Source: Gemmatimonadales bacterium | Lineage (GTDB): Bacteria; Gemmatimonadota; Gemmatimonadetes; Longimicrobiales; Gaopeijiaceae | Length of the DNA: 64,000 nt | Assembly: GCA_007695195.1 (NCBI GenBank) | Contig: REEG01000140.1 | Location: 62,001 to 126,000 of the forward strand | Direction: 5' to 3' | Part shown: positions 59,695-63,770 of the stretch, one piece after another | How the letters are laid out: each line of letters starts with the position of its first letter | Numbering within the stretch: position 1 is the stretch's first letter | Made by a program: the position numbers and the translations under genes | Notes under the pieces: generated by a model | Told to the model about the DNA's origin: nothing | The model's database searches: none | The model's input: only the letters and a program-made list of their open reading frames with translations

Positions 59695-60051
59695 CTACGC
59701 CTCGAAGGAGTGCGTCTGAGCGTCTCCCCAGAGGCTCTCGAGTTGATAGAACTCGCGCGCCGTCGTGTGGAAGACGTGGACAACCACATCGAAGTAATCG
59801 ATGAGGACCCAGCGCCCTTCATTGAGCCCTTCCACATGGCTCGGGCGCACCCCCATCTTCTTCAACTCATCGATGATGTGATCGGCGATGGCCTTCACCT
59901 GGGTATCGGAACGCCCGGTGGCCAGGAGGAAGAACTCGGTGGCCGACGAGATGCCCCGGAGGTCCATGGCCAGGACCTCTTCCGCCTTCCGCTCCAGCGC
60001 CAACTCCGCCGCCCGGGCCAGGTGAGCCGGGGACTCGTCCCACTCGGGCAC
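59695..60051 (-). CDS. rsfS: Ribosome silencing factor RsfS
   Basis: Binds uL14 and blocks subunit joining in starvation. The conserved LDLRGISSATEFFLLATGRS-like segment, QVKAIADHI, and GRWVLIDYFDVVVHVFHTTAREFYQLESLWGD-type C terminus are all visible across 118 residues. It lies 17 bases after rplI. The 116 bases beyond its end (59579-59694) contain repeated ACCCCGGGGC blocks but no clear terminator. Confidence 0.93.
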   Translation of the reverse strand: MPEWDESPAHLARAAELALERKAEEVLAMDLRGISSATEFFLLATGRSDTQVKAIADHIIDELKKMGVRPSHVEGLNEGRWVLIDYFDVVVHVFHTTAREFYQLESLWGDAQTHSFEA

Positions 60052-60068: not shown

Positions 60069-60524
60069 TCAGCCTTCCTCCCGGGTGATCCGGACCTCAA
60101 CCTCCACCTCGACCTCCGAGTGGAGCCGAATGGCGACTTGGTAGACACCGACCTCCTTGAGAGGCTCATCCAGAACGACCTGTCTGCGCTCGACCTCGAA
60201 GTCGAGCTCCAGCTCGTTGAGGCGTTCCGCCACATCCTGGGCGGCGATGCTCCCAAAGAGCCGTCCCTCTTCCGACGCCAGCGCCTCAAAGGCGATGGAC
60301 ACTTCGTCGATCTGGGAAGCGCGCCGACGGGCCTCCAGAGTGTCCCGCTTGGATCGCTCCTCGGCCTGCCGCTTCTCCTCCTCGATTCGGCGGAGATTGC
60401 CGGCCGAGGCCTCGTAGGCGAGACCCTGGGGAAGAAGGAAGTTCCGGGCGTACCCGGGCTTGACGGTAACCACATCTCCGGGCTGGCCCAGGTTCTCCAC
60501 GGTCTCCTTCAAAATCAACTTCAT
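60069..60524 (-). CDS. rplI: 50S ribosomal protein bL9
   Basis: Ribosomal protein L9. MKLILKETVENLGQPGD (1-17) and VKPGYARNFLLPQGLAYEAS (about 21-40) form the N-terminal domain, a connecting helix of charged residues follows, and the C-terminal domain ends in VEVEVRITREE. It has 151 residues, close to normal. The ATG at 60524 fits; upstream codons lie in the DUF2232 gene. Confidence 0.94.
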   Translation of the reverse strand: MKLILKETVENLGQPGDVVTVKPGYARNFLLPQGLAYEASAGNLRRIEEEKRQAEERSKRDTLEARRRASQIDEVSIAFEALASEEGRLFGSIAAQDVAERLNELELDFEVERRQVVLDEPLKEVGVYQVAIRLHSEVEVEVEVRITREEG

Positions 60525-60543
60525 CGTCGCGCTCCTTGAAAAT

Positions 60544-61497
60544 CTATCCGGACCCGGCTGACTCGTCTGCGGCCCCGCGGGCCCGCAGATCGAACCACGA
60601 GTCGCCCACACCGATGACCATTGCCCCGAAGGCCAGCACCGGCGGCACAAGCGCCGCCGTCACTGCCAATAGAAGCATGGCCGGTAGCGAAAGCCCTCCG
60701 GAAAGAGCCAGAACCACTCCGGCTCCCCGAAAGGCGTATAGCCCTGCCATGAACACCACCAGGTTCAATCCCACCCGACCCGGTCCCCCACTCCAACCGA
60801 AGGCGAGGATCAGCCCCAGCCCCACAATGAAAACCCAGATCAGCGGGTCCGGGAACCGGAAGCGGGCCAGCGGAGAGAGTCCGGCATCCGATCCGGCGGA
60901 TGCGCGAACGTAGAGCCACCATGCCGTTCCCAGAGCCGCCAGCGTAGCCAATCCCAGGAGCGCAGGGAATACCTGACCCTGGATCTCCGCCGTTCGACCC
61001 AGCGTTTCCGCCAGGGCGCCCACAAACTCCCCTTCCCCCTCGCCGGAGAAGCTGCCCAGCAGCGCTCCCGCAGCCTGGGCTCCCCTTTCCAGCCGGGCAT
61101 CTACCAGGGCCTGGATGCGCCCGGTCCCGCCAAAGCCCGCCAGGATCAGCACCGCCGAGAGGAAGGCCCCCGCCACCGCCAGGAGGCCCCGCTCCAGCAT
61201 CGATCGTTGGGGCCAGCCCCAACTCAAGGCCAGGAACCCCCCCCCTGCCAGTATGGCCCACCCCCGCTCGGCGAACCAGAGGCCGTCACCGGAAGGTCCG
61301 GGGAGCGGAAAGAGCAGGATCAGCAGGGCCGCCCCCAGGATCAGACTCCGGAGCCGTCCACCCGGAACCACCAGCGCCAACAGGATGAACGGAACCCCAA
61401 CCAGGATCAGGGGGTGCCCGATGCCCAGGGCGAGAACCACCAGGAAGAGCCCCAGGGGTCGGAGCCATCGCCGCTCCGATCCCCTCACCTCTTCCAT
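60544..61497 (-). CDS. DUF2232 (YybS-like) polytopic membrane protein
   Basis: A 317-residue protein with about eight hydrophobic helices and no catalytic motif. Its place between the S6/S18 gene (9 bases upstream) and rplI (19 bases downstream) matches the YybS/DUF2232 proteins found in the rpsF-rpsR-rplI neighbourhood of Firmicutes and other phyla. The C-terminal half (LIWVFIVGLGLILAFGWSGG, NLVVFMAGLYAFRGAGVVLA) shows the family pattern. The role is unknown. Confidence 0.7.
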   Translation of the reverse strand: MEEVRGSERRWLRPLGLFLVVLALGIGHPLILVGVPFILLALVVPGGRLRSLILGAALLILLFPLPGPSGDGLWFAERGWAILAGGGFLALSWGWPQRSMLERGLLAVAGAFLSAVLILAGFGGTGRIQALVDARLERGAQAAGALLGSFSGEGEGEFVGALAETLGRTAEIQGQVFPALLGLATLAALGTAWWLYVRASAGSDAGLSPLARFRFPDPLIWVFIVGLGLILAFGWSGGPGRVGLNLVVFMAGLYAFRGAGVVLALSGGLSLPAMLLLAVTAALVPPVLAFGAMVIGVGDSWFDLRARGAADESAGSG

Positions 61498-61506
61498 CTG
61501 CGCATC

Positions 61507-62148
61507 CTACCGGTCGTGATCCTGTACGTAGGGAAGCAGGGCCAGGAACCGCGCCCTCTTCACCGCTGTGCCCAGACCGCGCTGGAAGCGTGCCGTCACC
61601 TTCGTCGTCCGCTTCGGCAGGATCTTCCCCTGTTCGGTAACGAAACGGGAGAGGGTAGAGACGTCCTTGTAGTTCAGCATCTCGATGCGGGGCCCTTCAA
61701 CCCGGCGGCGGCGCCCCCGTCCACCTGAAAACTCCGGGGGTGACGTGCCGTCATCCTCGAAGTCGTCGTCCTCGTCTTCGTCCTCGTCGTCGTCGTCATC
61801 ATCGTCCTGCGAGGAGGACTCCGGCTCTTCGGCGAAAATGGACATCCCCGTGGTGGGCTCGCCCTCGTTGATCACCACCAGGTGTCGCATCAACTCCTCG
61901 TCCAGCTTGAGGATGCGCTCGAACTCGGGGAGTGCCGAAGGATCGGTGACGAAGTGGGCCACCACGTAGTAGCCCTGATTCTGGTCGTGGATCTCATACG
62001 CCAGGGCGCGAACGCCCCAGTGATCCACCTCAGCCACCTCCGCTCCATCCGGTCCCGTCAGGAGGGCATGGAAGCGCTCGAGTTTGGCGTTGATCGCCTC
62101 TTCGTCGAGTGCGGGGTGAAAGATGTAGACGACTTCGTAGTTTCTCAT
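61507..62148 (-). CDS. rpsF-rpsR: Fused 30S ribosomal proteins bS6 and bS18
   Basis: One reading frame of 213 residues encodes both proteins. Residues 1-96 are bS6 ([49 protein letters not shown]). Residues 97-144 are a linker whose core (115-133) is an almost pure run of Asp and Glu. Residues 145-211 are bS18 ([52 protein letters not shown]). There is no stop, ATG or GTG between the two that could restart a full bS18. The bS18 part lacks the CxxC of zinc-binding forms. In known ribosomes bS6 and bS18 bind each other on the 30S platform. An ATG at 62247 is rejected as unconserved. Confidence 0.9.
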
Positions 62149-62184
62149 GGACTGTCGATTCCCGTGGTCCGTCGATGTGAACGG

Positions 62185-62204
62185 GCCCCGCCGGGGGGCG
62201 GAGC
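62185..62204 (-). promoter_or_regulatory. Leader hairpin upstream of the bS6-bS18 gene
   Basis: In the 63-base 5' leader the minus strand reads GCTCCGCC-CCCC-GGCGGGGC, an 8-bp stem (one G-U pair) with a CCCC loop, ending 36 bases before the ATG. S6:S18 complexes autoregulate through a leader RNA in several bacteria; whether this hairpin is such a site is not shown. Confidence 0.45.
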
Positions 62205-62218
62205 GGGTGAAGCTATAG

Positions 62219-62337: not shown

Positions 62338-63438
62338 TCAGACGTTGAAGCGAAAGAGCATGATATCCCCGTCCCGAACCAGGTACTCCTTCCCCTCGGA
62401 CCGGATCCGGCCTTCTTCCCGAGCCGCCTTCAGCGACCCCAGGCCCTCGAACTCTTCGAAGCCGATGGTTTCCGCTCGAATGAACCCTCGTTCGAAATCA
62501 GAGTGGATGGTGCCGGCCGCCTCGGGCGCCAGGGCGCCCCGTCGAACCGTCCAGGCCCGCGACTCCTTCTCGCCCGCCGTGAAGAAGGTCAGAAGGCCCA
62601 GCAGGCGATAGGTGCCCCGGATCAACCGATGGAGGCCCGGCTCGGAAATGCCGAGATCTCCGAGGAATTCGTTCCGATCCGCAGGATCCAGTTCGGCCAA
62701 CTCCGACTCGATGGCCGAGCAGAGGGTCACCAGGTGGGCATCCTGCTCCTCCTCCGCCAGAACCTCACTCACCCTCCTGGTCCACTCATTCTCACCCTGA
62801 GGCAGATCCGACTCGGCCACATTCCCCAGGTAGAGCACCGGCTTGGCCGTGAGCAATTGGAACCCGCGCAGGATCTTCGTCTCCCGGTCCGTCAGGTCGA
62901 GGGCGCGGACCGGATGCCCCCTGCCCAACTGCTCCTGCAGGCGCTCCAGAAGGGCATGCTCGTCCTGCGCCTCCCGCTCGCCGGACCTGGCTCGTCGTAC
63001 CGTTTTCTCCATCCGCGTCTCCACGGCGTCCAGATCTGCCAGCGCCAACTCGGCGTTGACCACCTCACGGTCCCGGAGTGGATCCACCTCGCCCAGGACG
63101 TGGGTCACGTCGGGATCATCGAAGCAGCGAAGGACGTGGACGATGGCGTCCACCTCTCGGATGTTCCCCAGGAACTTGTTCCCGAGTCCCTCACCCTCCG
63201 ATGCTCCCTTCACCAGGCCGGCGATGTCCACGAACTGCACCACGGTAGGGATCTTCTGGCGGGAAGCCACCAGGTCATGGATTCGATCCAGCCGGGGGTC
63301 GGGAACCTCGACGGTTCCGATGTTGGGATCGACGGTGCAGAAGGGATAGTTCTCGGAAGGCGCCCCCTGTGCTGTGAGAGCATTGAAGAGGGACGACTTC
63401 CCCACGTTGGGAAGACCGACGATTCCTGCTTTGAGCAT
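62338..63438 (-). CDS. ychF: Redox/ribosome-associated ATPase YchF (OBG-family)
   Basis: A universally conserved P-loop NTPase of the OBG family that prefers ATP. The G1 motif GLPNVGKSSLFNALT is at residues 8-22, G3 is VDIAGLVKGASEGEGLGN (about 65-82), G4 is LYLGNVAESD (variant NxxE) and the C-terminal TGS domain ends in EYLVRDGDIMLFRFNV. It has 366 residues from the ATG at 63438; codons above it to 63549 are unconserved. Confidence 0.95.
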   Translation of the reverse strand: MLKAGIVGLPNVGKSSLFNALTAQGAPSENYPFCTVDPNIGTVEVPDPRLDRIHDLVASRQKIPTVVQFVDIAGLVKGASEGEGLGNKFLGNIREVDAIVHVLRCFDDPDVTHVLGEVDPLRDREVVNAELALADLDAVETRMEKTVRRARSGEREAQDEHALLERLQEQLGRGHPVRALDLTDRETKILRGFQLLTAKPVLYLGNVAESDLPQGENEWTRRVSEVLAEEEQDAHLVTLCSAIESELAELDPADRNEFLGDLGISEPGLHRLIRGTYRLLGLLTFFTAGEKESRAWTVRRGALAPEAAGTIHSDFERGFIRAETIGFEEFEGLGSLKAAREEGRIRSEGKEYLVRDGDIMLFRFNV

Positions 63439-63770
63439 GAACTGAGTATCCTGACGGATGGGAAGGTGGAGTGCGGCAGTCCGGAGGTTCACCATGGGGT
63501 TCACCCTGTCGTGGTCAAGTCCGACCATCCGGCCACACGCATGAGACATGGGGCAGCCCGGAAAGGTATCCGCGTGACCTCCATCCGGTCAAAGTCACGG
63601 AAGCGAAGTGGGCGATGTGCCTGGCCCGGAACAGGGGGGTGGCGACGATGCCCTATTCCCCCTTGCGGGAACCGGGCCTTCCCTAGAGCTTTTCCGAGTT
63701 ATCGGACTGTTACCCGAGGGCGGCCCACGAAACCGGGCGCTCGCCACTCGCCGCCACCCCCTGGACCCTC
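63439..63770. other. Divergent intergenic region between ychF and the last gene
   Basis: The 332 bases must hold promoters for both sides. On the minus strand TTGACC (plus 63587-63592), 18 bases, TACCTT (plus 63563-63568) is a plausible ychF promoter, with a leader of about 118 bases. No equally good pair was found on the plus strand. Reading frames in this stretch look unconserved. Confidence 0.4.

Follow-up and report, generated by a model that had tools for sequence, protein, structure and literature searches.

The ribosomal proteins bS6 and bS18 are encoded as one fused polypeptide in a single family of bacteria, the BD2-11 clade of Gemmatimonadota, and the fusion of this essential pair is real and clade-wide. 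Genes of ribosomal proteins are among the most conserved in bacteria. Separate bacterial bS6 and bS18 pair before they bind 16S rRNA and are in contact with each other on the 30S platform. No published report of a bS6–bS18 fusion was found in the literature; the BD2-11 fusion is apparently unreported so far, and we know of no other pair of ribosomal protein genes that is fused across a whole bacterial lineage. As judged from the sequences, translation as a single chain is near certain, and the chain likely remains uncut. The fixed fusion product probably acts as a permanently tethered S6:S18 heterodimer that may repress its own synthesis via a leader RNA.

The fused gene was analyzed in a window of 64,000 nucleotides, i.e. 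the whole stretch of DNA under study, from a draft genome of 3.92 Mb in 306 contigs (96.4% complete, 1.5% contaminated). Its frame reads from the ATG at 62148 to the TAG at 61507–61509 on the minus strand and comprises 213 codons; the plus strand of the same region contains stops and is not open. The preliminary description had reported this frame as holding a full bS6, a linker at residues 97–144, and a full bS18, with no stop or usable restart between the domains. The open frame and both complete domains were borne out. The linker boundaries were not: the acidic part extends over residues ~97–135, and bS18-like sequence starts near residue 141. The bS6 domain is matched full-length over residues 1–93 (PF01250, 91.0 bits; TIGR00166, 81.8 bits) and the bS18 domain full-length over residues 154–210 (PF01084, 72.5 bits; TIGR00165, 74.5 bits), all scores exceeding the curated Pfam and NCBIfam cut-offs, and no further domain was detected in the chain with these two collections. 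Herein, bS6 has no C terminus of its own, as the frame runs on into bS18. The usual gene order rpsF–rpsR–rplI is preserved around the fused gene (Table 1). The only bS18 of the source genome lies in the fused gene, and no second gene for bS6 or bS18 was found in this 96.4%-complete assembly. Since each protein is single-copy and both reside in the fused gene, their use in ribosomes in some form is implied.

Table 1. Features of the fused rpsF–rpsR locus, with positions counted within the window.
Feature	Position	Strand	Remarks
Fused rpsF–rpsR gene	61507..62148	minus	213 aa, ~24.3 kDa, calculated pI 4.6, TAG stop included
bS6 part, residues 1–96	61861..62148	minus	PF01250 residues 3–92; AlphaFold2 pLDDT; Foldseek
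Acidic linker, residues 97–135	61744..61860	minus	derived from acidic bS6 tail; pLDDT <50 at residues 109–134
Conserved 14-residue stretch, residues 136–149	61702..61743	minus	invariant and near-invariant alignment columns
bS18 part, residues 141–213, without zinc ligands	61510..61728	minus	PF01084 residues 155–205; aligned to zinc-type bS18 from relatives
Candidate leader RNA, three-way junction	62161..62207	minus	CCC (62205–62207) pairs with GGG of the Shine-Dalgarno (62161–62163)
ychF	62338..63549	minus	upstream neighbor, TIGR00092
DUF2232 membrane protein gene	60544..61497	minus	directly downstream of the fused gene, PF09991
rplI (bL9)	60069..60560	minus	downstream, TIGR00158
rsfS	59695..60051	minus	TIGR00090

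In the AlphaFold2 model of the fused chain, the bS6 domain is confidently predicted (pLDDT mostly >90) and the bS18 domain moderately so, with a disordered linker between them. Foldseek matched the model to bS6 chains of solved ribosomes with a TMt of up to 0.92. Each of the best 60 of 157 PDB sequences covers one half only, and no solved fused chain is among them. A linker of at least 39 residues can readily span the distance between the neighboring bS6 and bS18 on the 30S platform. The two domains of the single translated chain would take their usual neighboring sites, and the acidic linker would remain as a flexible tether. With the linker retained in this manner, the chain would reach the assembling subunit already paired as a 1:1 S6:S18 heterodimer.

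The fusion is not confined to the source genome. Among the 57 nearest genomes, all 33 members of the family, representing 29 genera, encode both proteins in one open frame, and two sister families encode them in separate frames. A seeming fusion in a sister-family genome (G054) was rejected, as its long bS18 frame exists by chance only. In an order-wide search, 116 of 121 family members gave a match, and 109 of these are fused in one frame: 103 match without interruption, and in six the match falls into two parts, both in one open frame whose linker is long. The true fusion that the preliminary description had claimed is borne out, and neither a linker indel restoring a stop and a start nor an intact separate rpsR, the two outcomes it had set against a fusion, holds across the family. 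In the family genomes examined, there is one bS18 per genome. Of the remaining seven genomes, two are unfused (G102 and G103), one has an N gap within the linker (G118), and two have the locus at a contig end (G121 and G124). The sixth, G104, has a frame break inside the linker just before PPEFSGG (locus L147, G104:C176:11000-14500), either a draft-genome error or a real shift; given the intact frame of G010 from the same genus, the former is probable. The seventh, G141, is a 1 Mb, 60%-complete draft from the same family whose locus (L152, G141:C9) holds a dissimilar bS18 of the zinc type and a dissimilar bS6; this foreign-looking contig was probably misbinned.

Chance is ruled out as the origin of the open frame, since one frame is conserved in 109 family genomes despite many linker lengths. 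That the fusion is an assembly or sequencing artefact, or the defect of a single broken genome, is hardly conceivable: the source is indeed a draft in 306 contigs, but the same fusion recurs in those 109 genomes, including several single-contig assemblies (G008, G026, and G029), and in separately named public records. The search for fusions covered Gemmatimonadota and 150 genomes of Pseudomonadota, the phylum of Luteibacter. Among the matches listed, from which very diverged fusions could escape, no uninterrupted bS6–bS18 match occurred outside the BD2-11 family among 220 sampled Gemmatimonadota genomes, and no bS6–bS18 fusion occurred in the Pseudomonadota. One pseudomonadotal candidate (G418) had a suggestive frame length of 214 aa for both halves and was rejected as an independent fusion, because its sequence reads as two genes in different frames.

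The linker varies from 39 to 181 residues within the family, and the frame is kept throughout. Between relatives, linker substitutions amount to 377 at third codon positions versus 149 and 142 at the others, an excess that a protein-guided alignment of a D/E-rich stretch favors somewhat. Both the preserved frame and the substitution pattern indicate that the linker is translated. One fused gene (L051, G026:C1:952500-957500, positions 1853–2887) has a 181-residue Ala/Gly/Asp linker that is much longer and less acidic than those of its relatives. Alternatively, internal initiation on the shared mRNA could be imagined to yield free bS18, with the fusion as a minor product. Candidate starts (ATG or GTG) do occur in some fused genes, close to the bS18 core or inside the RRRR stretch; however, their positions differ between genes, and they are preceded mostly by arginine codons with no Shine-Dalgarno. 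In the source gene, two in-frame ATGs lie between the domains. One is part of the bS6 tail; the other borders the bS18 core, and starting there would omit the basic N-terminal part. Five of the 33 fused genes (L039, L040, L041, L044, and L055) lack any ATG, GTG, or TTG from the end of the bS6 domain to the bS18 core, which makes separate canonical initiation impossible there, and the ancestral rpsR start codon is absent from fused genes. With five genes devoid of a start codon and none common to the rest, separate initiation of bS18 is very unlikely.

The very variable linker is followed by a nearly invariant stretch, (S/G)PPEFSGxRGRRRRxEGP. A PPEF-like end is found in 32 of 33 fused proteins, and PPEF is new to the fused proteins. 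The PPEFSG stretch may be a ribosome contact or a cutting site. In the latter case, one precursor would be made, to be cleaved within the linker or beside PPEF/RGRRRR, leaving separate acidic-tailed bS6 and bS18 in mature ribosomes. Near-invariance after, and not within, the linker would fit such a cut, as would the predicted disorder of the linker, and cleaved ribosomal precursors are known, bL27 being trimmed by Prp in other bacteria. On the other hand, a Prp-type protease is absent from the 12 genomes tested, whereas control genomes matched; this removes the best-known cleavage candidate, not every protease. Contact with rRNA can explain the conservation of RGRRRR, since this half is akin to the basic N terminus of zinc-free bS18. 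Cleavage is also known from eukaryotes, where the ubiquitin fusions of RPS27a and RPL40 are cut ribosomal precursors (PMC10296562). On balance, a cut precursor is rather unlikely, and the uncut, tethered chain is preferred.

The bS18 half of the fusion has furthermore lost its zinc site. Cysteine is absent from all 33 fused bS18 halves, and with it the CxxC and CxxH ligands, which are present in every unfused Gemmatimonadota bS18 that was read, including those of G102 and G103. In a bS18 tree, which is based on a short alignment, the fused proteins form one clade (support 0.83) inside Gemmatimonadota bS18 (0.97); trees of bS6 only and of the concatenated proteins resolve the fused group poorly. 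The branching of the fused bS18 within Gemmatimonadota favors loss of the zinc site in place over import. With its basic N terminus and missing CxxC/CxxH, the fused bS18 resembles the zinc-free (C-minus) bS18 of the E. coli type; unlike the C-minus proteobacterial bS18, it groups with the zinc-type bS18 of Gemmatimonadota. A horizontal replacement by bS18 from a zinc-free lineage was considered as well and is not supported by this nesting, within the limits of the short alignment.

The genes of unfused relatives suggest how the fusion arose. In the sister families, bS6 ends in a D/E-rich tail, as expected from the earlier proposal that the linker derives from an acidic bS6 tail. The tail is written in GAG/GAC/GAA codons, which constitute the Shine-Dalgarno of rpsR, and the rpsF stop is no more than a few bases away from the rpsR start. 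Because the tail thus doubles as a ribosome-binding site, rpsF and rpsR of many Gemmatimonadota share a frame as it is and are separated by just one stop codon. Such an arrangement, poised for fusion, was seen in many genomes outside the family (e.g. G040, G042, G044, G050, and many f5 genomes). Within the BD2-11 family, the genes of G102 and G103 are separate but in the same frame, joined by TAG, one codon, and ATG (GAGGAGGAGGATTAGAACATG and GAGGACGAGGAGGAATAGGCCATG, respectively). Most simply, an rpsF stop codon standing in frame one codon ahead of the rpsR start would have been lost, joining the acidic linker to bS18; this would have happened once, in the common ancestor of most BD2-11 members. 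The linker is accordingly the inherited and enlarged acidic bS6 tail, and the ancestral bS18 start MPPP or MAPP may survive as SPPEF of the fused protein. Although many Gemmatimonadota are one stop codon away, fixation of the fusion was seen in the BD2-11 family only in the sample.

The fused genes are preceded by a conserved element with the fold of a three-way junction, in which a nearly invariant CCC base-pairs with the Shine-Dalgarno GGG. Helix 2 of this candidate leader covaries, and helices 1 and 3 vary hardly at all. In the alignment, 97.8% of pairs are kept with 18 double-sided changes, which exceeds all 500 shuffles as well as slid versions. Related sequences also precede rpsF in unfused relatives; hence, the leader probably predates the fusion. 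Like the RpsF_leader of Rfam (RF02893), it is structured, lies directly before rpsF, overlaps the Shine-Dalgarno, and has a CC(G/A) adjacent. Unlike it, the BD2-11 leader is a three-way junction with its own sequence. Membership in RF02893 was rejected, since the covariance model gave no match at 18 loci (E up to 1) or in the window (E up to 10), while the E. coli leader as positive control matched at 110 bits. In E. coli, rpsF is repressed by the S6:S18 complex and by neither protein alone (PMC4647458). By analogy with this repressor, fused S6:S18 would be a natural effector of the leader. The structure of the leader fits such feedback: bound to it over the Shine-Dalgarno, the S6:S18 unit would repress the mRNA that encodes it. 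Altogether, we infer a chain that is not cleaved, is assembled with both domains still tethered, and controls its own synthesis.

Compared with the separate rpsF and rpsR of bacteria, the fused gene encodes the same complete domains and is likewise followed by rplI, but it yields one chain with no free bS6 C terminus or bS18 N terminus and has no stop, start, or Shine-Dalgarno in between. Ubiquitin–ribosomal protein fusions of eukaryotes and the signalling protein–bL9 model NF011110 also place a ribosomal protein inside a larger chain; their partner is not a second ribosomal protein, and the ubiquitin fusions are cut. RimI is the N-terminal acetyltransferase of bS18. It scored above the cut-off in most fused genomes tested (G000, G008, G024, G029, and G032), with a weak match in G015 and none in G026, and is thus kept in fused genomes though bS18 has no free N terminus there. 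On an uncut chain, neither glutamylation of the bS6 tail by RimK nor N-terminal acetylation of bS18 by RimI would be possible in the usual way. More tentatively, and at somewhat less than an even chance, the ribosomes of the whole family could contain two essential proteins that are permanently tethered, with the zinc loss tied to the fusion and with the tethered pair serving as an obligate repressor of the mRNA that encodes it. The fusion illustrates a route by which such ribosomal protein fusions arise and provides a clean marker for the BD2-11 family. It would also offer a natural test of whether formation of the S6:S18 heterodimer ahead of rRNA binding suffices for assembly and autoregulation.
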